NCBI RefSeq assembly: GCF_001693415.1
Contig: NZ_MAKX01000001.1
Span: forward strand, 1,258,047-1,322,046
Length of the DNA: 64,000 nucleotides
Direction: 5' to 3'
From: Tenacibaculum soleae
GTDB taxonomy: Bacteria > Bacteroidota > Bacteroidia > Flavobacteriales > Flavobacteriaceae
Both the position numbers and the translations under genes were made by a program. Every line of letters begins with the position of its first letter. Positions within the stretch are counted from its first letter, which is position 1. Positions 16,610 through 33,181 of this stretch are shown here, piece by piece. Under the pieces are notes generated by a model, which made no database searches, had not been told where the DNA came from, and was given only the letters and a program-made list of their open reading frames with translations.

Positions 16610-19600
16610 TTACTTAATTATTAATGATTTTCCATTTGAATGACTGTTAAATTCAGGAGCATACATATTTTGAATGGTTGTAATGCCATTGCTAAAATTT
16701 CCTTTATTATTTGCGCGTACATCATATTCAAAAACATAAACTCCTTTAGGTAAACGATCAAAAAAGAAATTTGTTGCCGCATCTTTGGTTGCTTGATAAT
16801 AACCTAAGCCATCTTGCCATTTGTATTGCGAAAGTACATTTATTGGTTCTACACCAGACGCTCTCATGTCTTTCATGTGAATAAATTCCATATCTCTGTC
16901 AGAGCGAAGTTCAATTCTTACCGTAATTAAATCGCCAACTTTTAAATTTGTTTTAGTAGTAACTTCAACAAGTTCTTTACCTGTATCCGAATTTACTTTT
17001 TTAAACAGTTTTTTCTTTATTTTTAGCGGAGTCTCAGCGGTTGTAATTTTATCTAAATCTTCAAAATATTGCCAATACAATCCTCCCCAAGCAATACCTT
17101 TTCCTTTTTTAGAAATCGTTACTTCTGCCATGTCGGATTTAATTTCTTCTTTATTCCATGAAGTTTTAAAATAACCAGTTCCTGCTTCTACTTTTACATT
17201 TTTTAACTTTGTGGGAGCAATTTTTTGATTTCCGATTTTAAGATCAACCATATCTGTAATAGAAAGCCAATCGTTTCCTTGTAATAATAATGCATATACA
17301 GCCTCGGTGGTTGCTTTGGTTGTTTGCCAACGATTGGTTTGTTTATTTTTAAGCAGCCAAATTTTTAAATTATCAATAGTTTTGGTGTTGTTTTCAATTT
17401 CAGAAAATGCTTCTATTAATAATGCTTGTGTTTCAATAGGGGCTTCGTAATTATAATATCCTGCAACGTTTGCTTTCCAGTACATACCTAATTCATCAGA
17501 AGTAATACTATTTTCTTTTAAAGATTTGATAATTTTTGTTGAAATAGATTGATTATCAGCTCTAAATTGAATTAAAGCTATTTGCCCTTTAGCGTATAAA
17601 TTATAAGCATTCCAATAAATAGCAGTTTGATTTTTATAATATTTAATTGCGCTTTTAGTCGCGTTTGAAAATGTAATTTCAGGGTGAAAACTACGCATGT
17701 ATAAATACTGAATCGTAAAATAATTTAAATGATTTTTCTTTAGATATTCTTCATATTTAACAACGCCTTTTGTGGCTTTTATTTTTGCAGCTTGTTTTAA
17801 TAAATCACTGTATTGTACTACAATTTCTTGATCTAAAAATCGAATTGCTTTTTGAAGCATTTCATTTGTTGAAGCATCAAAATTTTTAATACCTAATTTT
17901 TTTAAATGACCAAATCCACTAACAATGTGTTGCGTAATATATGTATTGGCATAATCACTTCCTTTAAACCAAGGAAAACCACCAGTATTCAATTGCATGT
18001 TTCTTAGTTTATGGACGCTTTTTTGTTGCTCGTTCTTCATTTTGTTTAAATCAAATAACAGGGCAATACGCTTTTTTTGTTCGGTTTCAGATTGTGCATC
18101 ACGCAACCAAGGAGTTTCTTGAATAATCAATGATTTTAATTCCTGATTTTTTTCTAAGTTACTTACTAAAGCATCCGAAGATTTCCATTGTTTAAAAACT
18201 TCTTGAATCCTTGGATTTGAATTTGCTATATGACTCGCCAATGTATTTGCATAATAACGTGTAAAAGTTTGCTCGCTACATTCATATGGATATTCCATTA
18301 AATACGGTAACGCTTGCACAGCATACCAAGCCGGGTTTGATGTAACTTCTAATGTTAATTTGTGATGTTTTAAACTTGTTGAGGTATTGTTTTTTAGTTT
18401 ATCTAACGTAAATGTTTTTGTTTGATTAGAGCGTACCCACATTGGCAGCGTTTCAGTAACCAACATTCGGTTAGATAAAACAGGTAAAACATTTTGTTCT
18501 CCATCAGAAAAATCGCCAGCCTTGGCTATAATTTTATATTGAACTGCTTGTACAGTTTCTGGAATGGTTAAATTCCAAGAAACATTTGTATTTCCGTTTG
18601 TATCAACTTTAAAAGATTGATTTTTTGTTGTGTTTTCTAACAGATGAATTTCTTTACCTGTAATAGCATCCGTTAAAATTAATTGAGATATCCCTCGCAG
18701 ATTTTTATCTGACAGATTCGAAATTTTGGCACTCAATGTTATTTTATCACCTTCTCTTAAAAATCGTGGAGCATTTGGTGTAATCATTAACTCTTTTTGA
18801 GTTACCGTTGTTAACGTTTTTACAACAGATTGTGCTTTTTTAGTGTGTGCTAATAATTGTAATTTCCATTTGGTTAACGCTTCGGGAGTTGTAAAACTAA
18901 ACGTAATATTTCCTTTTTTATCCGTAGTTAAATGTGGGAAGAAGAAAGCAGTTTCTTGTAAGTTTTTACGAATTTGAATTCCTTTTAAGGAAGTTTTTTC
19001 TTGTTTTTCTTGAACGTTTTTAGGTGATTTTTCTTCAGATTCATCAGCTTCATTATTTTCAATATTTAATCCAGATACTTTTCCAGAAATAGCCTTACGG
19101 GCTGTGCCTGTAAATGCTTTTTTCGGACTAGTTCCATATCCCATAACAACAACTTCATCTAAAGTATTACTATTATTAATCATCAAAATATTAAGGTTTG
19201 AAAAATCCCCAATAACTTTTTCAATAGTTTGCATACCAACAAAACTTAAAACCAAAATATCTCCTTTTTTAGCTTTGATTGTAAAATCGCCATCAAAATC
19301 TGTTTCAGTACCTTCTGTATTTCCTTTTATTGTAATAGTTACGCCAGGTAAAGGACCCGATTCATCAGAAACAATACCTTTTATTGTTCCTGAGTATTTT
19401 CCAGAAGTTTTAATTTTATCTCTTAGTTTTAATTTTTTCAGGTATCTTTCATTTGTCCAACTATGATTATTTAAACTAAATCCAAACCAGTTAAATTGAT
19501 CGTATTGTTGAGGTTGATAACGGTTATTCGAATAACTACGGTTATAAACTCTAAAACTATTATTACCAAAACTTTGGTGTGCGTTTGCGGTATTTCCGTA

Positions 19601-22600
19601 TGAATAATAATTAGATGTTGTTATAGGATTGAATTGCCAGTTATGCGGTTTAAACTCATCTAAAGAAGCATCATACATACTTGCCAAAACTTCGGCAGTT
19701 ACTTTGTTTCTTTTATCATTTTTAATGGTGAAACTCCATTTTTCTTGTACGCCTGGTTGTATTTTATCTCTAAAAGTAGTAGTTTCAATCGTAATAAGTT
19801 CATCTTTTTTAGGAACCGAAATATTAAGTGCACCACTACTAAAAGAATTATAGTTTACAAAGTAGTATTTAACAGAAAAACTGCCAATATCTTCTTTTGT
19901 TACAGGGATTTCAATAGATTTTTTGTTATTGTTTAAATGAACTAATTGAGTATTTACAATTTTATGATTTTTTTCAATTTGAACAACCACGGTAATATCT
20001 TTTGATGCAGAAGCAAGTTCTAAAGAAACCATATCACCAATCGAATAATTAGTTTTATTTTTTGTGATAAACAATAATTTACTATCAGCAATCTTTTTCT
20101 CACGAGCACTAGTAACGGTAAAATTGGCTTTGTCGGTTACTTGTTGTTTAAATTTATCTCGCGTAGTTAAAACGGCAATATATTTACCTGAACTCCAACT
20201 TTTAGTGGTTTTAAAAACATGCTCTTTTGATTTTTTAGTGTCAAATTCTTTCTCAAAAACCAATTTTCCTTTCTTCCAAAAAGCTTCACCTTGTTCTTCT
20301 TTAGTATAAGCATCATGCGGAAATAATTTTCTAAACTCATCTTCAGGGATATCTTGATAATCGGGAGTATTCCAAGGTCTTTTTCGTAACGGATTTTTAG
20401 GAGCTTTTAATTTGTAGATTTTTACAGTTCCGCTAGCAGCCACAAACTCGTTATTTAAGTTTTCGGTGTTGATTTTTATTTTGTGCTGTTTCTCGTCTTT
20501 ATCAATAATCGAATTTATTTGTAAAGAAGCCGTTAAAGCATGATAACCTACTTTTACAATGGTGGTAGCACTTCGTGTTTCGCCATTAATATCGGTAACA
20601 TCAGCCGTAATTTCATAATTAAAAATGGGTAAACCTTCTTTGGAAACACTCTCATCAGGAAGTGCTTTAAATTTGATAGCAAAATTACCTGCTGCATCGG
20701 TAATGCTTTCTCCGTGGGTAATTTCTTGTGCTTCAGACGATGAATTTGGTCTGCGCCAATACCACCAATTAGGATATTGTACTTTTCTATGCACTCGATA
20801 TACCACTTTAGCATCGGTTATATTTGCTCCAGAAAAAGCTTTTGCAAATCCGTTTACAGTAATACTATCATTCAGTTTAAAAGTTTCGGTAACTGGTTTA
20901 AAATCGGTTTCAAATTTCGGTCGTTTGTATTCTTCTACCGAAATAGTAGTAATGTAATCATCTCTTTCAAAATCGAAATCGACTGTGTTATAAAAAGTAC
21001 TTTCTTCTTTGTTACTTTCATCAATATTAAAAGAATATTCGCCAGTTAAACCATTATTAGGTAATACTATTTCACCGGATGCAGATCCGAATTCATTTAA
21101 TTTTAAATCTAACTTTTTAACTTCTTGTCCGTTTACATCATTTAAGGTAATTTCAACATATTTATTAGTGAAAGGAGTAGATTTATCGTCCTTTTTTTGA
21201 ATGAAAATAGTTTTAAAATAAACCGTTTGTCCTGGGCGATAAATACTTCTGTCAGTAAAAATAAATGGTTTTATTTTGATACTTTCATTTTGCGTATCTA
21301 TAGTTGGTTTTTGATATTTATATAAATAATAATCACCAAAAATAGCCTTGTCATTTTTAGTTGTAACAGTTATAAATACATTATAAAAAGTTTGATTACT
21401 TTTATAAGTAGCAAACCCATTTTTATCAGTAATTAATTTCTGATTGATGCTTTTTCTATTTCTGTATTCTTTGTTTTTAAGTAAAAGTTGCGCGTTTTTA
21501 ATCGGTTTACCTGTATTTCTATCAACTACTTGGTAGGTTTTTATATTGTTATCTGTACTTTCAATTAAAACCAAATTACTTACCTGAATATTTGCGGTAG
21601 CCAATAAATCAGTCGTATTTAAAGTTTCGTTTTCATGGGCAATAATTAAATAATTTCCTTGTGCAAGTTTTGGAACGATAACCTCGGTTGTGTGTGATAA
21701 ATAATCTAATTCATTTCTTAATTTGGTATTCCAAGATGTTGCTATTGTTAGCTTTTTTATAAAGTTGACGCGCTCTTCTTCTTTATAAATAGTATTTAAT
21801 TCTTCAACCTGATCTCTACTAATTTTATAAGTTGTAAAATATAGCGTATCAATATTATTGTAAGTAAGTAATAAACGAGAAGCAGTATTTATAGGGCTAA
21901 ATTTTTCTGTTAAAACAGTAAGTTTTTTTGTGGTGATTTGCTGCTTTAAAGCTTCACATTTTTTAGCGCCAATACTTTTAGGAAACTGCGTAATTACACG
22001 ATTACAAATGGTAAGTACTTCTTTGTTTTTAAAACGAAAAGTTTCATTTTTGTTTGAATTGTAGCTGCTTGCTTGTTGTTTGTAAATTTCAGCAATCTTA
22101 TAACTATACAATCCAGCAATTTCTTGTTTTTTATAGTTGTTTTCAGCTGATTTTAATGTTTGTAAAAGCAACTGCTCTTTATCATTAAGAGTAGTATGTT
22201 GATTCACAAAATTTAATCGTTCTAAATCTACCGTAGCCAAAGCTTTTAAATTGTTGTCTTTTAAATGAAAACTTAGTAGTTCTTGATAAATTTTCAACGC
22301 ATTTAGTTGAAGTGAAATAGCATCTTTTGAAGTTAAGTTGATAGTAGAAAAACTACCTGCATCACTTATCAATTTAGGATTGTCAATTTTAAATTGATAG
22401 GCTGGTTTTGTAATATTTGTCTCAGATGTTTTATAAAATTTTAGCGCATTATGTGCTAAGAAATCAAATAGGGTAGGACGGTATTCTTTAGAGTTTTTTG
22501 CTGTATGTAAAATATCACTAAATTCATAGATGTCAGCTTGTTGTAAAAGTAATCCGTTGGCTAATGATTTTTGATAATAGCTGTGAATTTCGGCAAATAA

Positions 22601-23032
22601 AGTATCTAAATCCCAAGTTCTAAAATCGTTTTCATCAATTTTTTCGGATGTTTTGGTACGTTGATAAAACTTCCATCTATTTTGATTAAAATATTGCCAA
22701 TACAAATTGGCTAAAACATTTTCTAACAAGTTTTTTGTAGGGAAACTACTTTTATCAATCTGTTCTTTAAATTGATTGATGATTTTTAATTGAGCGCCTT
22801 CTTCTAAAGCTAACGAAAACTTACTTTTATAAAATAATGCTTTAATAATTTGTGGAGAATTCTTAGTTGCTTCCGCTTTAGCGTAAATATTATTTACAAC
22901 TTTTAGGGCAGATTTAGGTAAGTTATCTTTTTCAAATTCCTGAACTTCATTCCAAAGATTTTTATAATTTTCTTGTGCATTTACAAGGGATGAAAATAAA
23001 ATTAGTAACAAAAAAGGAGTGATTTTTTTCAT
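16610..23032 (-). CDS. Giant alpha-2-macroglobulin family protein with embedded SusC-like N-terminal module
   Basis: A 2140-residue exported protein (signal peptide MKKITPFLLLILFSSLVNA). Bacterial alpha-2-macroglobulins are periplasmic protease traps. An MG2-type motif (FTDRSIYRPGQTVYFK) is near residue 600. The thioester motif CSEQ is at residues 1585-1588 (context PYECSEQTF), so covalent trapping should be possible. The thioester-containing helical domain follows and a receptor-like C-terminal domain ends the protein. Unusually, residues about 1205-1325 resemble the start of a SusC protein: a carboxypeptidase-regulatory-like domain (GPLPGVTITIKG... ETDFDGDFTIKAKKGD) and LDEVVVMGYGT. A small barrel protein gene follows. 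Confidence 0.93.
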   Translation of the reverse strand: MKKITPFLLLILFSSLVNAQENYKNLWNEVQEFEKDNLPKSALKVVNNIYAKAEATKNSPQIIKALFYKSKFSLALEEGAQLKIINQFKEQIDKSSFPTKNLLENVLANLYWQYFNQNRWKFYQRTKTSEKIDENDFRTWDLDTLFAEIHSYYQKSLANGLLLQQADIYEFSDILHTAKNSKEYRPTLFDFLAHNALKFYKTSETNITKPAYQFKIDNPKLISDAGSFSTINLTSKDAISLQLNALKIYQELLSFHLKDNNLKALATVDLERLNFVNQHTTLNDKEQLLLQTLKSAENNYKKQEIAGLYSYKIAEIYKQQASSYNSNKNETFRFKNKEVLTICNRVITQFPKSIGAKKCEALKQQITTKKLTVLTEKFSPINTASRLLLTYNNIDTLYFTTYKISRDQVEELNTIYKEEERVNFIKKLTIATSWNTKLRNELDYLSHTTEVIVPKLAQGNYLIIAHENETLNTTDLLATANIQVSNLVLIESTDNNIKTYQVVDRNTGKPIKNAQLLLKNKEYRNRKSINQKLITDKNGFATYKSNQTFYNVFITVTTKNDKAIFGDYYLYKYQKPTIDTQNESIKIKPFIFTDRSIYRPGQTVYFKTIFIQKKDDKSTPFTNKYVEITLNDVNGQEVKKLDLKLNEFGSASGEIVLPNNGLTGEYSFNIDESNKEESTFYNTVDFDFERDDYITTISVEEYKRPKFETDFKPVTETFKLNDSITVNGFAKAFSGANITDAKVVYRVHRKVQYPNWWYWRRPNSSSEAQEITHGESITDAAGNFAIKFKALPDESVSKEGLPIFNYEITADVTDINGETRSATTIVKVGYHALTASLQINSIIDKDEKQHKIKINTENLNNEFVAASGTVKIYKLKAPKNPLRKRPWNTPDYQDIPEDEFRKLFPHDAYTKEEQGEAFWKKGKLVFEKEFDTKKSKEHVFKTTKSWSSGKYIAVLTTRDKFKQQVTDKANFTVTSAREKKIADSKLLFITKNKTNYSIGDMVSLELASASKDITVVVQIEKNHKIVNTQLVHLNNNKKSIEIPVTKEDIGSFSVKYYFVNYNSFSSGALNISVPKKDELITIETTTFRDKIQPGVQEKWSFTIKNDKRNKVTAEVLASMYDASLDEFKPHNWQFNPITTSNYYSYGNTANAHQSFGNNSFRVYNRSYSNNRYQPQQYDQFNWFGFSLNNHSWTNERYLKKLKLRDKIKTSGKYSGTIKGIVSDESGPLPGVTITIKGNTEGTETDFDGDFTIKAKKGDILVLSFVGMQTIEKVIGDFSNLNILMINNSNTLDEVVVMGYGTSPKKAFTGTARKAISGKVSGLNIENNEADESEEKSPKNVQEKQEKTSLKGIQIRKNLQETAFFFPHLTTDKKGNITFSFTTPEALTKWKLQLLAHTKKAQSVVKTLTTVTQKELMITPNAPRFLREGDKITLSAKISNLSDKNLRGISQLILTDAITGKEIHLLENTTKNQSFKVDTNGNTNVSWNLTIPETVQAVQYKIIAKAGDFSDGEQNVLPVLSNRMLVTETLPMWVRSNQTKTFTLDKLKNNTSTSLKHHKLTLEVTSNPAWYAVQALPYLMEYPYECSEQTFTRYYANTLASHIANSNPRIQEVFKQWKSSDALVSNLEKNQELKSLIIQETPWLRDAQSETEQKKRIALLFDLNKMKNEQQKSVHKLRNMQLNTGGFPWFKGSDYANTYITQHIVSGFGHLKKLGIKNFDASTNEMLQKAIRFLDQEIVVQYSDLLKQAAKIKATKGVVKYEEYLKKNHLNYFTIQYLYMRSFHPEITFSNATKSAIKYYKNQTAIYWNAYNLYAKGQIALIQFRADNQSISTKIIKSLKENSITSDELGMYWKANVAGYYNYEAPIETQALLIEAFSEIENNTKTIDNLKIWLLKNKQTNRWQTTKATTEAVYALLLQGNDWLSITDMVDLKIGNQKIAPTKLKNVKVEAGTGYFKTSWNKEEIKSDMAEVTISKKGKGIAWGGLYWQYFEDLDKITTAETPLKIKKKLFKKVNSDTGKELVEVTTKTNLKVGDLITVRIELRSDRDMEFIHMKDMRASGVEPINVLSQYKWQDGLGYYQATKDAATNFFFDRLPKGVYVFEYDVRANNKGNFSNGITTIQNMYAPEFNSHSNGKSLIIK

Positions 23033-23208: not shown

Positions 23209-24564
23209 ATGAAAATTCATTTTATAGCCATCGGTGGTAGTGCAATGCACAATTTAGCAATTGCTTTACACCAAAAAGGATACCAAATTACAGGAAGTGA
23301 TGATACAATTCACGATCCTTCAAAATCTCGTTTATCAAAACATGGATTGTTGCCTGAGGAATTTGGTTGGTTTCCAGAAAAAATCAATACTGATTTAGAT
23401 GCGATTGTTTTAGGAATGCATGCAAAAAAAGACAATGCTGAATTGTTAAAAGCACAGGAGTTAGGAGTGAAAATTTATTCATATCCAGAGTTTTTATACG
23501 AGCAATCTAAAGACAAAACACGTGTTGTTATTGGTGGTTCTCACGGTAAAACTACTATTACCTCTATGATTTTGCATGTGTTGAATTATCATGAAAGAGA
23601 GGTTGATTATATGGTCGGAGCACAGTTAGATGGTTTTGATACGATGGTGCATTTAACTGAAAAAAATGAATTTATTGTTTTAGAAGGTGATGAGTATTTA
23701 AGTTCTCCAATAGACATGCGTCCGAAATTTCATTTATACAAGCCAAATATTGCGTTGTTAAGCGGAATAGCATGGGATCATATTAACGTGTTTCCTACGT
23801 TTGATAATTATGTAGAACAGTTTCAAATATTTAACGATTCGCTTACTAATGGCGGAATTATGGTGTATAATGAAGAGGATACAGTTTTAAAAGAGGTTGT
23901 TGAAAATTCAAATCATCCAATAAAAAAATATCCATACAAAACACCAAATTATTTTATAGATAACGGAATTACGTATATCGATACTCCTGATGGAGATTTA
24001 CCTTTAGAAATTTTTGGTGATCATAATCTTCAGAATTTAGCAGGAGCAAAGTGGATTTGCCAACACATGGGAATTGATGAAGATGAATTTTACGAAGCAA
24101 TCGCTAGTTTTAAAGGAGCTAGTAAGCGATTAGAAAAAATTGCAGAAAATAAAACATCGGTAGTTTTTAAAGATTTTGCACACAGTCCGAGTAAAGTAGC
24201 GGCAACAACTACAGCTGTAAAAAAACAATATTCAGAAAGAACCGTTTTAGCTTGTTTAGAGTTACATACCTATTCTAGTTTGAACGCTGAGTTTTTAGCA
24301 GAATATAAGGGTGCTTTAGATGAGGCGGACAAAGCAGTAGTTTTTTATTCACCACACGCAGTAAAAATTAAACAATTAGAAGAGGTTACAGCGCAGCAAA
24401 TAGCCAATGCTTTTAAACGTGATGATTTGATTATCTATACGAATCCAACTGAGTTTAAAGAGTTTTTATTCAATCAGAATTTAGAAAATACCGCTTTGTT
24501 ATTAATGAGTTCTGGTAACTATGGAGGTTTGGATTTTGATGAGGTAAAGAAGTTTATTAATTAA
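23209..24564 (+). CDS. mpl: Mur ligase of the Mpl type (UDP-MurNAc:tripeptide ligase)
   Basis: A 451-residue Mur ligase. The N-terminal FIAIGGSAMHNLAIALHQKG is the nucleotide-binding motif of MurC/Mpl. The ATP P-loop is GSHGKTT at 110-116. FVVLEGDEY-type and DHINVFPT motifs follow, and the C-terminal KDFAHSPSKV segment fits Mpl. Mpl re-uses the L-Ala-D-Glu-mDAP tripeptide released in cell-wall turnover. Separating Mpl from MurC relies on length and on the first motif; MurC itself is normally in the dcw cluster. The stop codon overlaps the convergent nucleotidyltransferase gene by 8 nt. Confidence 0.88.
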   Translation: MKIHFIAIGGSAMHNLAIALHQKGYQITGSDDTIHDPSKSRLSKHGLLPEEFGWFPEKINTDLDAIVLGMHAKKDNAELLKAQELGVKIYSYPEFLYEQSKDKTRVVIGGSHGKTTITSMILHVLNYHEREVDYMVGAQLDGFDTMVHLTEKNEFIVLEGDEYLSSPIDMRPKFHLYKPNIALLSGIAWDHINVFPTFDNYVEQFQIFNDSLTNGGIMVYNEEDTVLKEVVENSNHPIKKYPYKTPNYFIDNGITYIDTPDGDLPLEIFGDHNLQNLAGAKWICQHMGIDEDEFYEAIASFKGASKRLEKIAENKTSVVFKDFAHSPSKVAATTTAVKKQYSERTVLACLELHTYSSLNAEFLAEYKGALDEADKAVVFYSPHAVKIKQLEEVTAQQIANAFKRDDLIIYTNPTEFKEFLFNQNLENTALLLMSSGNYGGLDFDEVKKFIN

Positions 24565-25600
24565 ATAAACGTTTCAATAAGTATATTCTATATTCTCTTA
24601 TATAAAAAGATTTTGAAAACAAAGAGATACGATGGATATATAAAAAGTAATATTCCAATGATTTCATATATTTTGAATGTTTTTTTGGATTATCAATAAA
24701 AAACAATTGTTTTTTTAAGAATTTTTTAGTTTTATTAGTTTTTTGATAATTTAAAGAAGTTGGCGAATTAAAGAAATAATTTGTACTTGCGATAAAGTTA
24801 TCAAAGTAATATTTTTTTGAATATTTAAAATTAGATATAACATCTTTAGAAGATGTATTTTCTGATTGTAAGTATAGGTCATATGAATTTCTAAAAGAAA
24901 TATTTTTATTCCATTGGCCTTTATCATTAATTTGTTTGTTAAAACAGGTCATCAATACTTGGTTTTTATTTGAAAGTACTGTAATGTTTTTTACTTTTTT
25001 TAAAGTACTCTTAACATAGTTGTAATTAAAAATATTGTTATTTGTCATTTTGTAATGCACTTCAATAGCTCCTGTTTTATCCTTTTTCACTAATCTTGGA
25101 TAATGTCTATTAAAAATAGTTCTGTCAATGCTTGGTTTACTTATGTATTTTTCTTCTTTTAAAATTGATAAAGTTAATTTAATATCTTTTTCATCAATTA
25201 AAAAATCAATATCGCCCACCATACGTTCAGCTATATCATCATACAAACCATCTAATAAATTTCCAGTTCCTTTTAAAAAAATAGGCGTGATGTTATTTTT
25301 TAAGAGTATTTCATTTATTTCTTTGGCTTCGGTTATAATTTGCTGATTTCTTTCGCGATTTAAATCCGTAATATGCTGCATGTACTCAACTAAATCCTTT
25401 GGTAAATAATGTAAAAATCCGACACGTTTTAAATTACAGTATAAAGCAGGAAAAACATAATGTGACGTGCTAACTTTAACAACAGGATCCCAATCAATAT
25501 TATTTAGTTTTAATTCTTTTTCAATCAACTCTCGGTTATGTTTTTCATGAGTAATTGTTAAGCATTTACCAATAAATAATAAGGTGTCTTTATAATTCAT
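24557..25600 (-). CDS. NTP_transf_5-family nucleotidyltransferase
   Basis: A 347-residue protein of the uncharacterised nucleotidyltransferase family (NTP_transf_5). The core LKGTGNLLDGLYDD leads into GDIDFLI at 129-135, with D130 and D132 in the place of the two metal-binding aspartates. The C-terminal half is helical and rich in Lys, Asn and Tyr. Members of this family are often encoded next to PqqD-like and HPr-kinase-like proteins in peptide natural-product clusters, where a nucleotidyl group may be added to a phosphorylated peptide. The start overlaps the kinase-like gene by 11 nt, so the two are coupled. Confidence 0.8.
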   Translation of the reverse strand: MNYKDTLLFIGKCLTITHEKHNRELIEKELKLNNIDWDPVVKVSTSHYVFPALYCNLKRVGFLHYLPKDLVEYMQHITDLNRERNQQIITEAKEINEILLKNNITPIFLKGTGNLLDGLYDDIAERMVGDIDFLIDEKDIKLTLSILKEEKYISKPSIDRTIFNRHYPRLVKKDKTGAIEVHYKMTNNNIFNYNYVKSTLKKVKNITVLSNKNQVLMTCFNKQINDKGQWNKNISFRNSYDLYLQSENTSSKDVISNFKYSKKYYFDNFIASTNYFFNSPTSLNYQKTNKTKKFLKKQLFFIDNPKKHSKYMKSLEYYFLYIHRISLFSKSFYIREYRIYLLKRLFN

Positions 25601-26696
25601 CGTTAAAAATTTTTGAAACAGTTGTTATCATTTTCGAATTATTAGAATACGTAAGTTGATAACAAGGTAGGTTTGAAAACCAGTTTAAGAAAACTTCAAC
25701 ATTTTCTTGTATTGGTGATAACCAAGAGTCAGGTACTAACTGTTCAAAGGCTTTGGTATTAGGTATTTTATTAATAATCAGGTCACTATCTTTTTTGTAT
25801 TTAATAAAAACGAGTGCTTTGCATTTTTCCTTTTGTTTATAGTTTGTGTTGTTTGTAGGTAAATATCTAACAATTTTATTTAATCTTTTAAAGTGGTATT
25901 CAGCAGAATTTTGTAGTTCAGGATAAATAGGAAGTAAAGTAGTTAAGCTATTTTTTTTAATTGAAATAGCAGAAGGAAAACTATAAACTTCTTGTTTTTT
26001 AGCATCAACAGGAACAAAATCATCTGCTAAACAAGTAAACCTATTTGCTTGTAATAAAGCTAAAGAAGTACTTTTTCCATTACCAGAATCTCCTAAAAAA
26101 AGCATAGAATTTTTACCATTACTAATAGCTGAAGCATGAAAAACACCTAACCATTGATTTTCTGGTTTGTGATGGATTAGTTCTGTGATTTTCATTGAGA
26201 ATTTCCCTTGAAAATAATGGACATTATTTAAAGTCCATGTTCCGATAACATTGTTGTTTATAGCAAAGCAAATGTGCTTTTTATCACTATACACTTCAAA
26301 ATGATGTGTTATTTTTTTATTTATATTACCTTCTAAGTATGCAAATTTTGGGTGTACTAATGAGTATTCATATTCAGATAAGTAATGTACTTTGAAAGTA
26401 ATATCATTTACTTGATAAAACTTTTCGTATTCGAATTTTTTTGGTTTTAAAATAGGAGGTAAATCACGTTTAGTTGAGTTTTGGGAATTTAGTAAACTGT
26501 TTATGTCTGCGATTAAGTTTTCTATTTCTTGGAGAGGTATATTTATTTTATTGCTAATTTTAGTTATAATGGTTTGTTTATCAATATTTTTATATAGTAA
26601 AGAAAGTGTTTCAGCAACTAAAGGTTCAACAACAATATATTCGTTTGAATCTTTAAACCAAATAATATTTTTATTTTCTATTTTTTTAATAATCAT
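25590..26696 (-). CDS. PqqD-like domain fused to an HPr-kinase-like protein
   Basis: A 368-residue protein. Residues 1-72 have a PqqD/RRE-like pattern (WFKDSNEYIVVEPLVAETLS, then helices with QTIITKISNKINIPLQEIEN); such domains bind leader peptides. Residues about 185-330 match the HPr kinase core: FHASAIS (H187), Walker A GDSGNGKST (202-210), the acidic pair in LADDFVPVD (D225/D226) and FPSAISIKK. HPr-kinase-like proteins in lasso peptide clusters phosphorylate a precursor peptide. Here no lasso cyclase or protease is nearby, so the substrate is open. A terminator after the short peptide gene lies 59 nt upstream. Confidence 0.82.
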   Translation of the reverse strand: MIIKKIENKNIIWFKDSNEYIVVEPLVAETLSLLYKNIDKQTIITKISNKINIPLQEIENLIADINSLLNSQNSTKRDLPPILKPKKFEYEKFYQVNDITFKVHYLSEYEYSLVHPKFAYLEGNINKKITHHFEVYSDKKHICFAINNNVIGTWTLNNVHYFQGKFSMKITELIHHKPENQWLGVFHASAISNGKNSMLFLGDSGNGKSTSLALLQANRFTCLADDFVPVDAKKQEVYSFPSAISIKKNSLTTLLPIYPELQNSAEYHFKRLNKIVRYLPTNNTNYKQKEKCKALVFIKYKKDSDLIINKIPNTKAFEQLVPDSWLSPIQENVEVFLNWFSNLPCYQLTYSNNSKMITTVSKIFNDEL

Positions 26697-26754
26697 ATTA
26701 GTAAATATATAAAAAAGGAAGAATTTTTTATACTCCTATTTAATTTAGTTAAAT

Positions 26755-26785
26755 AATAAACCCTCGAAAATTTCGAGGGTTTATT
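26755..26785 (-). terminator. Terminator after the short peptide gene
   Basis: A palindromic hairpin (AATAAACCCTCGAAA / TTTCGAGGGTTTATT), 12 nt after the peptide stop codon and upstream of the kinase-like gene. On the minus strand the region after the stem is T-rich. Incomplete termination could let the kinase and transferase genes share transcripts with the peptide gene. Confidence 0.78.
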
Positions 26786-26797
26786 TATTATAAATAA

Positions 26798-26974
26798 TTA
26801 AAAATTTCCGCCAGGAGTTCCTGGGCCTGGACTTTGCGCTTGTGCTTTTTGAGGGTTTAAAATCATATAAGTTCCAATGGCTGTTAAAGCAGCATACTTA
26901 CTATAACCACCTATTTTTTTTAGCGCCTCTTTTCTTGATATATTTTCGGTGTTGTTTTTTATTTGTTTTTTCAT
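26798..26974 (-). CDS. 58-residue peptide with Tat-like or leader-like N-terminus (candidate precursor)
   Basis: Read on the minus strand: ATG at 26974 and TAA at 26798, giving 58 codons. The protein starts MKKQIKNNTENISRKEALKK, then has a hydrophobic segment (YAALTAIGTYMILN) and AQAQ, with a possible signal peptidase site after residue 46. The last 12 residues are QSPGPGTPGGNF. SRKEALK resembles a Tat motif (SRRxFLK). I recall similar short proteins in other flavobacteria. The gene starts 11 nt after the stop of the T9SS surface-protein gene, so they share a transcript, and it lies upstream of the PqqD-HPrK and nucleotidyltransferase genes. It may be a secreted peptide or the precursor of a modified peptide. 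Confidence 0.75.
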   Translation of the reverse strand: MKKQIKNNTENISRKEALKKIGGYSKYAALTAIGTYMILNPQKAQAQSPGPGTPGGNF

Positions 26975-26985
26975 GATGTCAAGTG

Positions 26986-29900
26986 TTATTCTAAAATAAT
27001 TTTTTTATTAACTTTTCCTAAGCTAGAACTTAGTTCTACAACATATATTCCTGAAGCTATTTTAGGTAATTCAACAACATGAGTACCTGTTGCTTTAAAT
27101 TCAGATGTCATTATTTTTTTTCCTAGAATTGAATATATGTTAACTGAATATTTATCAGTTTGTAAACCTGATATTGTTATGTTATTATTAATTGATTTAT
27201 AAATATTAACATTTTGAATATCTTCTTTAATATCAGTGTTATTTGGTTTTTTTGCACTTGTGTGAATGTAAAATTGCCCAGAATTATTTGTATTTGACTT
27301 TAAAGAAACAGTATAATTTTTATTAGATAAATTTGTAAACACATTGTTTTCTCTATCTTCTAAATACAACTGAATACCAGAAGGTATATTTTTACTATTT
27401 ATAGAGAATGTGATTTGTTCACCTGCTTTACCAATTATACCTACTGGAATTACCATTTTTTGATAATCTGAGTTAGGTAATGTTTGAATTGCTAATTTTT
27501 TTCCTTCATTATTTTCTAATAATTCAGTAAATACAGCAAAATCATGCGTTACACCACTAAACATTTTTGAATCATATCCCTTATCAAAACCGGCAGTTTT
27601 GTTAGCTACATAAAATACTTTAGTTGACTTTTTACTTCCATCATTTTCTAAAAATAATTCAAAAGATGGGTTAGGAGCTTGTCTCAAAAAAGTATCTGAA
27701 CTTTGATGACTTTGATTAGCGGTAGAAAAAATAACATTAGTATTAGTGTTAGCTTCAACAAAAAAGCCTTGTGCAGGAGCAATATTAATAGGAGAGGCGT
27801 TATTATATGTTTGATATTGAGAACCATCCCATAACCAAAAAGTACCATTTTCAATAACAGAATTATCTCCGGCTAAAACTGCTGAGTTTATATAAGATGT
27901 AAATGGGTTTCCTATTAGATTGAAATTATCTCTACTTCCCATAGAAACAGGGATGGCTACATTTGTGACATTGATATTTCCAGTAATAGAAACATCGCCA
28001 GGAGCGTCTAGTTTCATTGATGCTCCTGTTCCTGATATTACAGGTCCAGTGCTACTTATGTTTAAATAATTCCAAGTATTGGTAGCGTGATCATTATTAT
28101 AAGCACCAATACCAATATTAGCACCACTACCTGTTGCAAAAGTATGATTTGCAATTATATCTTGTGTAGTTTCATTATTAACAGGAGGAGCTACTAAATA
28201 CCAATTTGTAGTTGGTAAATTTCTGTTATATGTTACAGGAGCAGTTACCGTTGCGTTGGCAATTAAAGATGCTCCAGATACAATATTTATTGAGTTTACA
28301 GTAACGGCAGAAGATACAGTAGGGTAATTAGTTACCCCAGAAGGAATAATTACATTAGCTGAATTAGTAGGAATAGTGTTCGTGTTCCAATTCCCTGCTG
28401 TTGTCCAGTTGTTATTTATAGTACCTGTCCAGGTAATTGTAGGGTTACCTACTAAAACACCTGTAGTACTACCGACACTATTTAAGGTTAAATTAGCATC
28501 ATTTGCAGAGGTATCTTTTAATGTTCCCATATTATTAGCTAAAGAGCCTATGGCGATACCATCAGTGTCTAAATCACTAATTATAACAGTGTATCTAAAT
28601 AATAAAGAGCTAGTTCCTGAACCGCTAATATATGCAGCTTGACGCAAGGTACTACCAATATTAATAGCTATTTCTGGAGTTCCACTTACAGTGTTTACTA
28701 TTATATTTTCATTAAAATTAACAGTGAAATCTAAATTTTGTCCCACAGTATAAGTTGCATTTACAGGTACGTTAACATTAACGACAGTTGGGCTATTCGC
28801 ATCAATAGCATCTGCGTTTTGACTAATAGCTGTAGTGAAAGCATCAGAGTTATTACCAGCAGCGTCTGTTAAAGTAAAGCTTACTGGAATATCGTCTCCA
28901 GCAGCTCTATCAGTATTTCCTTCTACTATTGTATAAGTAGTGGTATAATTACCACCTCCATTATCAGTAAGACCAGATACAGTTACTCCGTTAATAAATC
29001 CAGCATTTAATAAAAGTCCAGTTTCACTAGCAGTAATAGTTACTGTAATTGCATCACCAACTTTAGTAGAAGTATTAGGAATAGATACAGAAGTTATTGT
29101 TGGGCTATTCGCATCAATAGCATCTGCGTTTTGACTAATAGCTGTAGTGAAAACATCAGAGTTATTACCAGCAACGTCTGTTAAAGTAAAGCTTACTGGA
29201 ATATCGTCTCCAGCAGCTCTATCAGTATTTCCTTCTACTATCGTATAAGTAGTGGTATAATTACCACCTCCATTATCAGTAAGTCCAGATACAGTTACTC
29301 CGTTAATAAATCCAGCATTTAATAAAAGTCCAGTTTCACTAGCAGTAATAGTTACTGTAATTGCATCACCAACTTTAGTAGAAGTATTAGGAATAGATAC
29401 AGAAGTTATTGTTGGGCTATTCGCATCAATAGCATCTGCGTTTTGACTAATAGCTGTAGTGAAAGCATCAGAGTTATTACCAGCAGCGTCTGTTAAAGTA
29501 AAGCTTACTGGAATATCGTCTCCAGCAGCTCTATCAGTATTTCCTTCTACTATTGTATAAGTAGTGGTATAATTACCACCTCCATTATCAGTAAGGCCAG
29601 ATACAGTTACTCCGTTAATAAATCCAGCATTTAATAAAAGTCCAGTTTCACTAGCAGTAATAGTTACTGTAATTGCATCACCAACTTTAGTAGAAGTATT
29701 AGGAATAGATACAGAAGTTATTGTTGGTGCTTTACCATCAACAACAATAGCTTTATTTGCCCCTAAAGAATTTGCAGCACCAGGTGTAGCCAATGTTATA
29801 TCAGCATTAGTACCAGAACCGTTTTGAATTGTTCCTCCGTTTAATAATATAGCACCTGTAGATATATAGTCTAAATCAGCACTTATATCACCAACTTGTA

Positions 29901-30786
29901 CTGTATAATTAAATGTTAGTACGTCTGTACCACTACCAGAAGTATAGTTAATGGTACGGTCTGTAACACCAGTTTCTAAAGTAATTTGTGGAGTACCCGT
30001 TACTGTAACATTTTCGCTAAATGTAACAGTAATGGCGATAACATCACCTGCTTTATATGTTCCGTTTGCACTAGAAGAGTTAACATTACTTATAATTGGT
30101 GTACTACCGTTAAAGGTAGAGCCAGTGAACGAACTAGGAACAGTTGAGGGAAAAGAATACCCTCCAAAAGACCAATTTGAAGATGAAGTATTAATTAGAG
30201 CAGCACAATCCGCTAAGCTTCCATTACAAATAGTTGATCCATTATAATATCCTTCTTGAGTAATTATGTTGGCAGTAACTCCATCTGTTAGCCCTGTGTT
30301 GGCTAATGAATTACCGTTTATGTCACCAATAAAAGCAAGAAAAGTTCCAGGAGCGGCTCTAGTTCCTGTAAATGCAAAAAGCTCATCTATATTTGAAGTC
30401 GTAAAACCAGTGTCAGATTCAGAAGCTGTTCCTGAACTAGCAGTTATTCCTCCGCTATTATCATCAGCATCTGTAATATTTATAATGTTTCCTTTTGTAA
30501 TTGTATTACCAGTGTTATTTGTCCATAAAACTTCTCCTTCACCAGTTGGACTAACGAAAGCGGTTCCATTCCATTCTTCGTCTGTAAAGCGTATTGAGGT
30601 GTTATTAGGACAGTCATCTAATAAAATAAAAGAAAAACCATCATCATCATCATGATAGGCTACAAAGGCAATGTCACCTGGGGCATCAATTTGACCATTA
30701 TCATTTTGACTAATGGTATTTAGAATTCCTAAAAAAATAAATAGAAAACTAAAAATTTTGGTATTTAAGGTAATTTTTTTTTCCAT
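26986..30786 (-). CDS. T9SS-secreted repeat surface protein
   Basis: A 1266-residue protein with a signal peptide (ending GILNTISQ) and a C-terminal type IX secretion sorting domain. The C-terminal segment includes NVNIYKSINNNITISGLQ, VNIYSILGKKI, GIYVVELSSSLGKVNKKIIL. It should be exported and anchored on the cell surface. Residues about 354-666 are three 104-residue Ig-like repeats (start ITSVSIPNTSTKVGDAITVT), nearly identical at the DNA level. Further bacterial Ig-like blocks lie on either side (GTYKAGDVIAITVTFSENV and YTVGQNLDFTVNFNENI). The N-terminal 200 residues form an acidic domain (HDDDDGFSF). The role may be adhesion or display. The short peptide gene follows after 11 nt. Confidence 0.9.
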   Translation of the reverse strand: MEKKITLNTKIFSFLFIFLGILNTISQNDNGQIDAPGDIAFVAYHDDDDGFSFILLDDCPNNTSIRFTDEEWNGTAFVSPTGEGEVLWTNNTGNTITKGNIINITDADDNSGGITASSGTASESDTGFTTSNIDELFAFTGTRAAPGTFLAFIGDINGNSLANTGLTDGVTANIITQEGYYNGSTICNGSLADCAALINTSSSNWSFGGYSFPSTVPSSFTGSTFNGSTPIISNVNSSSANGTYKAGDVIAITVTFSENVTVTGTPQITLETGVTDRTINYTSGSGTDVLTFNYTVQVGDISADLDYISTGAILLNGGTIQNGSGTNADITLATPGAANSLGANKAIVVDGKAPTITSVSIPNTSTKVGDAITVTITASETGLLLNAGFINGVTVSGLTDNGGGNYTTTYTIVEGNTDRAAGDDIPVSFTLTDAAGNNSDAFTTAISQNADAIDANSPTITSVSIPNTSTKVGDAITVTITASETGLLLNAGFINGVTVSGLTDNGGGNYTTTYTIVEGNTDRAAGDDIPVSFTLTDVAGNNSDVFTTAISQNADAIDANSPTITSVSIPNTSTKVGDAITVTITASETGLLLNAGFINGVTVSGLTDNGGGNYTTTYTIVEGNTDRAAGDDIPVSFTLTDAAGNNSDAFTTAISQNADAIDANSPTVVNVNVPVNATYTVGQNLDFTVNFNENIIVNTVSGTPEIAINIGSTLRQAAYISGSGTSSLLFRYTVIISDLDTDGIAIGSLANNMGTLKDTSANDANLTLNSVGSTTGVLVGNPTITWTGTINNNWTTAGNWNTNTIPTNSANVIIPSGVTNYPTVSSAVTVNSINIVSGASLIANATVTAPVTYNRNLPTTNWYLVAPPVNNETTQDIIANHTFATGSGANIGIGAYNNDHATNTWNYLNISSTGPVISGTGASMKLDAPGDVSITGNINVTNVAIPVSMGSRDNFNLIGNPFTSYINSAVLAGDNSVIENGTFWLWDGSQYQTYNNASPINIAPAQGFFVEANTNTNVIFSTANQSHQSSDTFLRQAPNPSFELFLENDGSKKSTKVFYVANKTAGFDKGYDSKMFSGVTHDFAVFTELLENNEGKKLAIQTLPNSDYQKMVIPVGIIGKAGEQITFSINSKNIPSGIQLYLEDRENNVFTNLSNKNYTVSLKSNTNNSGQFYIHTSAKKPNNTDIKEDIQNVNIYKSINNNITISGLQTDKYSVNIYSILGKKIMTSEFKATGTHVVELPKIASGIYVVELSSSLGKVNKKIILE
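28790..29725 (-). repeat. Three 312-bp tandem repeats inside the T9SS surface protein gene
   Basis: The unit starts GGGCTATTCGCATCAATAGC at 28790, 29102 and 29414, an exact 312-bp (104-codon) period. Copies differ by only a few bases; for example AGCGTCTG versus AACGTCTG changes DAAGN to DVAGN. The high identity suggests recent expansion or conversion, and copy number may vary between strains. Confidence 0.92.
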
Positions 30787-30838
30787 AATTGTAGTTATTT
30801 TTTTGTAATTAGCATAAAGATAGTGATTTATAAATAAA

Positions 30839-30866
30839 ATTCACCTTTCGTATTTGAAAGGTGAAT
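30839..30866 (-). terminator. Terminator of the tail-collar gene
   Basis: An 11-bp stem (ATTCACCTTTC 30839-30849, GAAAGGTGAAT 30856-30866) with a T-rich tail on the minus strand, 18 nt after the stop codon. It separates the collar gene from the T9SS protein gene. Confidence 0.8.
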
Positions 30867-30884
30867 GATAATAAATTTTTAATT

Positions 30885-31541
30885 TTAACTTCTAGAAGGA
30901 TATTGACCTTGTAAACATATAATATAGTTAATTACTTGAACTGGCTGGATAATATTGAAAGGAGCATTATTTCCGGTAGGTCCTATTTGAACATTACCTG
31001 TTCCACTTACAGGGACACTTTGACCACCATATTTAGCATTTGTTGTTGTTTCACTAGAAAATCGATCTTTCCCATTATTAGCTAAAACACCAGAGCCAGG
31101 ATTACTATCATCTTCTCCTCCAGATTCAGTATTTACAGGTATGTCAACAGCACCTAAAAAAGAAGATAAAATTGCAGTATGTGTATGAGAAGGTAGATTT
31201 AAAAGGTTTAGAGACATCGTTTGTACTCCAAACCTTTGCCCTAAAACTCTTGTAGTTAAACCAGGGCCTGTTCTAGGTCCCATTGCTACCCTGCCTCTTA
31301 AGTCAGGTAAAGCAAAAGTTGTTCTACCATCTCCACCATAAATAGTTCCTATAACTGAAAATAAAGCTTGATTTTGTGCAATAGAAAGTAATTGACCATC
31401 GCAATAGGCCCAACCTCTTGGAGCAAAATTTCCTGCAAACATTTTAACTTCTCCAATAAAGCCTTCTTGTTGTGCAGAGATATTTGATATTGATAATAAA
31501 CAAATGAAAAGTAATACTGTTAATTTGATTTTTAGTTTCAT
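30885..31541 (-). CDS. Exported phage-tail-collar domain protein (MdpB-like)
   Basis: A 218-residue protein with a signal peptide (MKLKIKLTVLLFICLLSISN, cut near SAQQ). The tail collar domain follows: GFIGEVKMFAGNFAPRGWAY, CDGQLLSIAQNQALFSVIG, GGDGRTTFALPDLRGR, then LPSHTHT and NAPFNIIQPVQVINYIICLQ G. This fold occurs in phage tail fibres and in microcystin-dependent-like bacterial proteins. No other phage genes are near and it has its own signal peptide, so it is not part of a prophage. In flavobacteria such proteins often sit beside T9SS-secreted proteins, as here. Function unknown. Confidence 0.85.
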   Translation of the reverse strand: MKLKIKLTVLLFICLLSISNISAQQEGFIGEVKMFAGNFAPRGWAYCDGQLLSIAQNQALFSVIGTIYGGDGRTTFALPDLRGRVAMGPRTGPGLTTRVLGQRFGVQTMSLNLLNLPSHTHTAILSSFLGAVDIPVNTESGGEDDSNPGSGVLANNGKDRFSSETTTNAKYGGQSVPVSGTGNVQIGPTGNNAPFNIIQPVQVINYIICLQGQYPSRS

Positions 31542-31681: not shown

Positions 31682-33181
31682 TTAATTTTTACGCCAAAAG
31701 AACGGAGTAAATAAAATTAATACAGTAAAAAGCTCTAATCTTCCTATCAGCATTAAAAATGAGCAAAACCATTTGGCTGCGATAGATAAATGATTAAAAT
31801 TACTAACAGGGCTAACGCTACCAATTGCAGGGCCAATATTTCCTAAAGAAGAAGCACACGCACCTAAGGCAGAATAAAAATCTAACCCGAAGAAAGATAA
31901 AATAATAGTACCTGTAATAAAAATACCCATATACAAAACAAAGAACGAAAGTATGTTAAAAACAATAGTTTGTTTTACCGCTTTTCCGTCATAACGAACT
32001 GGTATTATTGCATTTGGATGCAATGATTTTTTAAATTCTAAAAAACTACTTTTAAGCATTATAATATGCCTTACAATTTTCACACCTCCAGAGGTAGAAC
32101 CGGCAGAACCGCCTAAGAAAAATAAAGAAAAAAACATGGCGGTAACCAAAAAACTCCACATTGTAAAGTCGGCACTTACAAATCCGGTTGTTGTAACTAC
32201 TGAAATTACTGAAAAAAGTGAATGTCGTATGGCACTTTCAACTTTTCCAAAAACCATTGGGTGTTCAATGGTAGTTTGTAATGCAGGATCTTGATAAAAA
32301 ATAATCATAACTGCTATAAAGAATGATATAGTTAAGGTTCCGAATAAATAATATTTAAATTCCTCACTCTGAATTACTTTTCTAACTTTTCCTTTTAATG
32401 CAAAATAAGTAAGAACAAAGTTAGTACCCGCTATAAACATAAAAAATATAATAATGTATTGTATCATTGGTGTTCCGTTCCAATGTGCTACACTTGCATT
32501 TTTAGTTGAAAAGCCACCTGTGCTTACCGTTGCCATGGCATGATTAAGGGCATCAAACCAGTTCATACCGGCTACTTTTAATAATAACAATTCAACAGCG
32601 GTAAGTAATACATATATTTGCCAAAGTCGTTTTGCGGTATCAGTAATACGTGGGTGTAATTTATCTGCAGATGGCCCGGGCGCTTCGGCCATAAACAACT
32701 GCATGCCTCCAATACCTAATAGTGGCAATATTGCAATGGTAAGTACAATTATCCCCATTCCTCCAATCCAATGGGTTGCACTACGCCAAAAAAGAATCCC
32801 TTTTGGCATTGCTTCGATGTCTGTTAAGATTGAAGATCCGGTTGTAGAATATCCTGAAATAGTTTCAAAAAAAGCGTTGGTAATTGACGGAATACTACCT
32901 GATAATACATAAGGAAGCATTCCTGTTAAGGTTAAAATCAACCATCCGAAGGTAACAATAAGATACCCTTCTTTTTTTTGAATTTTTTTAGTGTCAGGTT
33001 TGTTAAAAAAGTAAAGAATTAAACCTATAGCAATAGTGATAATACCAGCGTTTAAAATTCCCCATTTAGAATTTTCGTTATAATAAAAACTAAAAGGAAG
33101 TGAAAGCCACATAAATAATCCGTTAAGAATGGCTGTTATTCCTAAAAAACGATAAATTAACTTTAGATTTAGGTTTTCCAT
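31682..33181 (-). CDS. trkH: Potassium uptake membrane subunit TrkH/KtrB
   Basis: A 499-residue cation-translocating subunit with about ten membrane helices. The four pore-loop filters each carry the conserved Gly: ISGYSTTGSS, ATVSTGGFST, VVTTTGFVS and SSLGNIGPA. These line a K+ (or Na+) selective path through the inner membrane. It is translated with the regulatory TrkA subunit: the TrkA stop and the TrkH start overlap as TAATG. The first helices, LNLKLIYRFLGITAILNGLF, are typical of the family. Confidence 0.95.
   Translation of the reverse strand: MENLNLKLIYRFLGITAILNGLFMWLSLPFSFYYNENSKWGILNAGIITIAIGLILYFFNKPDTKKIQKKEGYLIVTFGWLILTLTGMLPYVLSGSIPSITNAFFETISGYSTTGSSILTDIEAMPKGILFWRSATHWIGGMGIIVLTIAILPLLGIGGMQLFMAEAPGPSADKLHPRITDTAKRLWQIYVLLTAVELLLLKVAGMNWFDALNHAMATVSTGGFSTKNASVAHWNGTPMIQYIIIFFMFIAGTNFVLTYFALKGKVRKVIQSEEFKYYLFGTLTISFFIAVMIIFYQDPALQTTIEHPMVFGKVESAIRHSLFSVISVVTTTGFVSADFTMWSFLVTAMFFSLFFLGGSAGSTSGGVKIVRHIIMLKSSFLEFKKSLHPNAIIPVRYDGKAVKQTIVFNILSFFVLYMGIFITGTIILSFFGLDFYSALGACASSLGNIGPAIGSVSPVSNFNHLSIAAKWFCSFLMLIGRLELFTVLILFTPFFWRKN

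Follow-up and report, generated by a model that had tools for sequence, protein, structure and literature searches.

Why does a gene of 58 codons lie between the gene of a large secreted protein and the genes of a kinase and a nucleotidyltransferase-like protein? The question is raised by positions 24557..31541 of a 64,000-nucleotide (nt) stretch of contig NZ_MAKX01000001.1 (the window) from the 3.0 Mb genome of Tenacibaculum soleae. Five minus-strand genes there encode, in order, a tail-collar protein, a repeat protein with a sorting tail of the type IX secretion system (T9SS; the cargo), the peptide, an HPr-kinase-like protein and a protein of the NTP_transf_5 family. An earlier reading made from the letters alone (the sequence-only reading) had described these genes and proposed the peptide as the enzymes' substrate. 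Open reading frame positions and profile matches agree with its genes, order, strand and coordinates, and its motifs GDSGNGKST, LADDF and GDIDFLI are all located in the window proteins. We consider it slightly better than an even bet that peptide, kinase and NTP_transf_5 protein form one peptide-tailoring system, phosphorylation followed by capping, which serves the adjacent cargo and whose product is predicted to be exported. We favour this reading because the genes co-occur even when unlinked, the peptide is paired with cargo, a Ser in the peptide is invariant and so is the catalytic motif of the kinase. A tiny peptide gene behind the genes of secretion-tagged proteins in many marine flavobacteria would then be a new route to a tailored peptide partner, tying a phosphorylation and capping chemistry reported for lasso peptides to type IX secretion, one of the main routes by which Bacteroidota deliver surface proteins.

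The family sample comprised 199 Flavobacteriaceae genomes from 198 genera, nearly one genome per genus. It was searched with the window kinase alone and with a peptide profile built from window and database sequences, not from the scored genomes. Strong kinase matches occur in 20 genomes and the peptide in 20; 19 genomes, spanning 18 genera, have both (Fisher p = 2.5e-24, phylogeny ignored). At E <= 0.001 the kinase query matched 22 genomes, of which G119 (2.8e-4) and G141 (7.9e-9) were set aside; the G141 match is a different kinase-like protein in an apparent sugar cluster. Completeness is 82% for the one genome with the kinase alone (G048), where the match starts 54 bases from a contig end, and 84% for the one with the peptide alone (G136). 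An order sample of 395 genomes, which shares genomes with the family sample and so is not independent of it, and whose profiles include rows from some of these genomes, gave 11 with the kinase, 11 with the peptide and 10 with both (p = 5.3e-18, computed likewise). Four weak hits (1.2e-11 to 3.0e-13) among its 15 kinase matches at E <= 1e-10 were set aside. Its kinase-only genome (G257, kinase at a contig end) is 72% complete and its peptide-only genome (G284) 66%. Two of its carriers, G279 and G284, fall outside Flavobacteriaceae, and all four peptide carriers in a phylum sample of 247 genomes belong to that family.

The NTP_transf_5 gene follows the same distribution. A profile search found it in 23 of 26 carriers and in none of 26 other family genomes picked by the analyst. 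Profile rows came from 16 of the 23 positive carriers; among the carriers that supplied none, 7 of 10 have the gene. The three carriers that lack a match are 82-87% complete, and in G055 and G149 the gene and the kinase lie on different contigs. The co-occurrence that the sequence-only reading had put forward for checking is thus a strong association of all three genes. Peptide and kinase are also found apart: G484 has its kinase at 3.55 Mb and, no closer than about 187 kb, seven peptides with six different mature parts; kinase and peptides are on different contigs in G267 and G392; and in G441 the nearest peptide is 327 kb from the kinase. Shared neighbourhood alone therefore does not explain the co-occurrence.

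The T9SS cargo is a conserved partner of the peptide, also at sites far from the enzymes, which the earlier reading overlooked. By its C-terminal sorting domain (CTD) the window cargo is assigned to T9SS type A: residues 1200-1265 match TIGR04183 (7.4e-7; 29.1 bits, cut-off 23), and Pfam Por_Secre_tail scores 26.7 bits, just below its cut-off of 27. From fetched loci we assembled 132 peptide sites with distinct contexts, removing identical contexts; a few overlaps between contigs of the same assembly remain (e.g. L144/L149, L150/L155). At 118 of the 132 the nearest same-strand upstream gene of at least 90 codons encodes a T9SS-tailed cargo, within 300 nt at 115 and within 60 nt at 101, where the cargo gene ends 2-52 nt before the peptide gene (median 24). 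A kinase follows within 400 nt downstream of the peptide at 34 sites. Polaribacter sp. Hel1_85 has three cargo-peptide sites on three contigs, and several Tenacibaculum are also paired. The closest named match in the scan, Tenacibaculum haliotis, has a peptide 98% identical to that of the window, cargo 11 nt upstream and the kinase downstream.

Cargo-peptide pairs appear to move and duplicate together, judging from correlated distances within genomes. In 13 genomes with at least three pairs, compared with 2000 within-genome shuffles, peptide distances correlate with those of the cargo CTD (r = 0.61, 0 of 2000 shuffles as high) and of the domain before it, the pre-CTD domain (r = 0.32, 8 of 2000). 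The mature part of the peptide alone also correlates with the CTD (r = 0.32, 1 of 2000). A profile of the pre-CTD domain (A5; 14 rows, one from the window genome) matches, at 2.5e-30 and 6e-30, the chains of RemA and RemZ, which are type A cargo of the T9SS in Flavobacterium johnsoniae; this places the domain in a general family of type A cargo. The peptide-linked branch differs from that general family in scoring at least 150 bits with A5. Matches at E <= 1e-10 occur in 111 of the 199 family genomes, and scores of at least 150 bits in 22, namely all 20 kinase genomes plus G121 (complete) and G066 (80% complete); among the rest the highest score is 139 bits. In the window genome the sole A5 match is the cargo adjoining the peptide. 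The type A CTD is described as bound by PorV and SprA in the relevant part of one report (PMC10994853). As a separate observation on this gene, window positions 28787-29727 hold three head-to-tail 312-base units with 98% matches, in its stretch of immunoglobulin (Ig)-like (Big_12) repeats.

The peptide gene is judged to be real, since its product has 1351 database homologues at E <= 0.001 and the ratio of nonsynonymous to synonymous polymorphism (pN/pS) among kinase-adjacent copies is low in both leader (0.15, 58 pairs) and mature part (0.25, 19 pairs). Both parts are under purifying selection, the leader more strongly. We analysed 237 distinct peptides, a set biased to close relatives because it was built from the best 120 of the 1351 database matches plus the peptides of the 132 sites. 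All 237 have Ser at predicted mature position +2; the alignment pattern requires this Ser, yet no peptide failed the pattern. The predicted cut is preceded by A-x-A (Ala at -3 in 230 and at -1 in 233). Mature parts are 10 residues long in 137 peptides, contain PG in 228 and end in Phe in 195, and Cys is absent from the mature part of all 237. There are 163 distinct mature parts, and 83 peptides have no Ser or Thr C-terminal to the invariant Ser.

The leader motif, I-[ST]-R-K-[ED]-A-[LI]-K-K, resembles a signal for twin-arginine translocation (Tat). Tat export was considered and rejected: RR occurs in 0 of 237 peptides, the conserved Arg being followed by Lys in 232, Asn in one and Glu in one, while three sequences are truncated before that residue. 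With the twin arginine absent, Sec export is probable. TatC is present in all 25 carriers examined and is therefore uninformative on the export route. Some peptides depart from the usual form or setting. Two from one genome (L057:9680-10150 and L057:11169-11456) combine the usual leader with unusually long, polar, Gly/Pro-rich mature tails of about 50 residues. Others, from small genomes, have no cargo neighbour in view (L076:8097-8243, L074, L077); L074 and L077 are at contig ends, and in L076 a FolD-like gene, named by eye, precedes the peptide.

The kinase most closely matches, among curated families, TIGR04352 (HprK_rel_A), yet it falls outside that equivalog because it scores 52.1 bits (5e-14) against a cut-off of 200. 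HprK_rel_A matches all 60 kinase homologues scanned at E <= 10 (best 1.3e-19), and fold comparison assigns residues 79-368 of the model to the PEPCK/HprK fold. In an alignment of 17 kinases, P-loop residues G202, S204, G205, G207 and K208 are invariant. H187, K208, D225 and D226, invariant there and in an alignment of 60, make up a complete His-Lys-Asp-Asp motif. Such a motif is carried by lasso-peptide kinases according to the passages of one review that deal with them (PMC9266682); we judged the residues equivalent by their order and by the P-loop context.

A PqqD-like N-terminus on this kinase, also proposed in the sequence-only reading, is supported by secondary-structure order and by weak profile matches that recur among homologues. 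Residues 2-71 of the confident model run strand-strand-strand-helix-helix-helix, the PqqD order. At E <= 10, PqqD-family profiles match the 60 homologues as follows: PqqD 20 (best 0.0016), WgkC 30 (best 9.3e-5) and lasso PqqD 13 (best 0.0027). All rows of the fold comparison cover residues 79-368; kinase matches filled the list, and the PqqD-like domain is not represented in it.

In the NTP_transf_5 protein, K110 and G111 (KG), G129, D130, D132, E180 and H182 are invariant across an alignment of 16, and comparison with solved structures by sequence gave no relative at E <= 1. Two neighbouring genes were noted at other loci. In G055, whose NTP_transf_5 gene is on another contig, the gene after the kinase encodes a PF00483 nucleotidyl transferase (L062:1270-2157). 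Directly after the NTP_transf_5 gene, L057-L061, L063 and L064 carry a gene for a beta-barrel-like protein of about 190 residues (e.g. L058:10762-11346). The copies in 8 of 26 carriers make up a tight subfamily (E <= 4e-67), and the two that were scanned match no Pfam family. The protein was considered as a fifth part of the system and rejected: relatives at E <= 1e-5 occur in 41 of 46 genomes, whether carriers or not, so we take it as a local neighbour.

For the chemical steps, the export and the cargo contact we infer the following course. The PqqD-like domain would bind the conserved leader motif, and the kinase would phosphorylate the Ser at mature position 2, chosen as the target because it is the sole Ser/Thr position common to all 237 mature parts. 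The NTP_transf_5 protein would then attach a nucleotide or hexose to the phosphate, on the model of PsmN. During export, signal peptidase I would cut after A-x-A and free a peptide of about 10 residues. In the least certain step, the modified peptide might bind or be joined to branch cargo at the outer membrane. A capped phosphopeptide of about ten residues, bound or covalently joined to T9SS cargo there as a dedicated anchor or ligand, is a tentative and rather doubtful end point; we know of no T9SS counterpart of secretion-coupled peptide tagging of this type. Since a likely substrate, residue and cargo class are named, the function of a non-lasso NTP_transf_5 protein and HprK-related kinase becomes directly testable in Polaribacter.

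By analogy, the proposed chemistry most resembles that of PadeK and of PsmK/PsmN. The paeninodin-type kinases PadeK, ThcoK and SyanK are HPr-kinase-like, and PsmN is presumably a member of the NTP_transf_5 family. The window system places its conserved Ser at predicted mature position 2 rather than at the C-terminus, has a predicted PqqD-like domain fused to the kinase and pairs the peptide gene with T9SS cargo; no lasso B protease scores above its cut-off in any of 26 carrier genomes. The paeninodin-type kinases share the His-Lys-Asp-Asp motif with the window kinase, as far as the sections on them go (PMC9266682). Pseudomycoidin likewise has a kinase and an annotated nucleotidyltransferase as a pair; in the account given there, phosphorylation by PsmK precedes hexosylation, PsmN adding one or two hexoses to the pseudomycoidin phosphoserine (PMC9266682). 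The window system differs in having no lasso protease and in a peptide with a predicted cleavable signal sequence. The HprK_rel_A group has a separate PqqD partner, whereas the window kinase carries its PqqD-like domain fused. WgkC, the PqqD protein of tryglysin (Streptococcus) and a weak profile match to the kinase N-terminus, acts in a radical-SAM pathway as a stand-alone protein.

A standard lasso system was rejected, as the sequence-only reading had anticipated: PF13471 (the B/B2 leader protease) is above its cut-off in 0 of 26 carriers, with one sub-threshold match in G484. The first scan, of seven window proteins, named no asparagine-synthetase-like cyclase; it did not extend to a genome search for the family. 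We also rejected a phage origin of the enzymes, since a search of 50,697 phage records with the kinase gave no match at E <= 1e-5; against PHROGs the kinase reached 0.044 at best, and the NTP_transf_5 protein and peptide had no match at E <= 0.1. A defence system was rejected too, with no PADLOC match at E <= 0.01. The open-access literature yielded no paper joining an HprK-related kinase with PqqD, or either with type IX secretion, which is no proof that none was published. The main text of a Flavobacteriaceae natural-product survey has no PqqD, HPr, lasso or type IX (PMC10734526). The survey does mention a RiPP-recognition-element cluster (RiPP, ribosomally synthesized and post-translationally modified peptide) in Aquimarina (PMC10734526).

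Several results weigh against a tailoring system serving the cargo. The Fisher tests ignore phylogeny, though the family sample has about one genome per genus. The window kinase has no PqqD-family match above a curated cut-off (WgkC 15 bits against 110), and Pfam PqqD does not match it at E <= 10. The conserved Ser is at +2, whereas lasso kinases act on a C-terminal Ser, which only 7 of the 237 peptides have. At 14 of the 132 sites, 6 of them at contig edges, the peptide has no cargo upstream. Of the 22 high-scoring genomes, 13 supplied A5 rows through their peptide-linked cargo, which leaves just 9 independent high scorers, 7 of them carriers. G121 and G066 have branch cargo, and searches there for kinase, peptide and NTP_transf_5 found none; G136 has the peptide without branch cargo, kinase or NTP_transf_5. 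Cargo scoring at least 150 bits outnumbers peptides (nine to one in G157, six to one in G045), so the pairing is not strictly one to one. Distances of the mature part and the pre-CTD domain give r = 0.06, with 598 of 2000 shuffles as high (tandem duplicates included), and a specific contact between the two is accordingly unsupported by the co-variation test.

These results leave room for other accounts of the same genes. The peptide could be a secreted RiPP-like signal or antimicrobial, with the cargo a mere co-transcribed neighbour and the enzymes making a released natural product. A conserved leader with a variable short core would suit such a product, as would enzymes of types met alongside lasso peptides. 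We consider it unlikely, given how regularly the cargo-peptide order recurs, the seven peptides of G484 and the absence of any protease or exporter gene within 24557-31541 of the window. Similarly unlikely is that the kinase and NTP_transf_5 protein act elsewhere, on the cargo or on a sugar carrier for cargo anchoring, with the peptide as a helper or regulator. The cargo branch does track the enzymes through all 20 kinase genomes and exceeds the peptides in G157 and G045; the peptide, however, is an equally close companion of the kinase (19 of 20), the predicted PqqD-like domain fits leader binding, and this account offers no explanation for the invariance of the Ser in a short peptide of exported type.

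The peptide might instead stay unmodified and help cargo export from the membrane or periplasm, the enzymes sharing only lineage history with it. Its single-sequence model, in which one long helix leads into an unordered tail (predicted local distance difference test, pLDDT, 69; modest confidence), would fit a helper, and its pairing with cargo is commoner than a kinase close downstream. Because peptide and kinase occur together across 18 genera, also when unlinked, we regard this as quite improbable.

In the window, the cargo and peptide genes are separated by 11 nt and the peptide and kinase genes by 101 nt, while the kinase and NTP_transf_5 genes overlap by 11 nt. Hairpins after the collar and peptide genes suggest that cargo and peptide form one unit and the overlapping kinase and NTP_transf_5 genes another. 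The sequence-only reading had placed terminators at these two points as splitting the locus, and both were recovered, one by a pattern scan (six terminator-like sites in the window against 3.0 expected from shuffling) and the other by folding. The second hairpin, not listed by the pattern scan, has a folding energy matched by 0 of 200 shuffles. Coordinates are given in Table 1.

Table 1. Features of the locus, with window coordinates and supporting evidence
Feature	Coordinates	Strand	Evidence
NTP_transf_5 nucleotidyltransferase-like protein, 347 amino acids	24557..25600	-	PF14907 2.1e-35
HPr-kinase-like protein with predicted PqqD-like N-terminal domain, 368 amino acids	25590..26696	-	TIGR04352 5e-14; model pLDDT 92.5
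D225-D226, predicted catalytic aspartates	26019..26024	-	invariant in alignments of 17 and 60
P-loop GDSGNGKS, residues 202-209, including K208	26070..26093	-	alignment of 17
H187, predicted catalytic histidine	26136..26138	-	invariant in alignments of 17 and 60
Predicted PqqD-like domain, kinase residues 1-71	26484..26696	-	secondary-structure order; weak profile matches
Terminator-like hairpin between peptide and kinase genes	26755..26785	-	fold -18.7 kcal/mol, z = -5.4
Precursor peptide gene, 58 residues	26798..26974	-	1351 homologues; co-occurrence with kinase
Predicted mature peptide QSPGPGTPGGNF, residues 47-58	26801..26836	-	Ser 48 invariant
Conserved leader/signal part, residues 1-46, ending AQA	26837..26974	-	conservation across 237 distinct peptides
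T9SS type A cargo with Ig-like repeats, 1266 amino acids	26986..30786	-	Big_12 2.4e-8; TIGR04183
Pre-CTD domain of cargo, residues 868-1190, peptide-linked branch	27217..28185	-	profile A5, 361 bits
Terminator-like hairpin 3' of collar gene	30839..30866	-	terminator pattern scan
Tail-collar protein, N-terminal signal-like stretch	30885..31541	-	Pfam Collar 9.8e-31

Rather than belonging to the core, the collar gene is a lineage-specific neighbour: of 87 cargo-peptide pairs at other loci that could be assessed, 19 have a homologue upstream of the cargo, 17 in Tenacibaculum and two in Polaribacter. Here the sequence-only reading, which had counted it among the parts, did not stand, while its co-occurrence, PqqD-like domain, exclusion of a standard lasso system and hairpins did. 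Of these proteins the collar protein alone matches phage tail families in PHROGs (3.2e-23). Tail-collar proteins are also encoded upstream of cargo genes at other loci (e.g. L120:1834-2409, L151:4878-5474), and some of them lack a signal-like stretch at the start (MDPFIGEI...). The locus is flanked by a TrkH gene (31682-33181) and a Mur-ligase gene (23209-24564), the latter convergent with the NTP_transf_5 gene and overlapping it by 8 nt. Farther along, window positions 16610-23032 encode a 2140-residue alpha-2-macroglobulin-like (A2M) protein in which residues 1217-1296, lying between the bait-region and A2M domains, form a CarboxypepD_reg domain.

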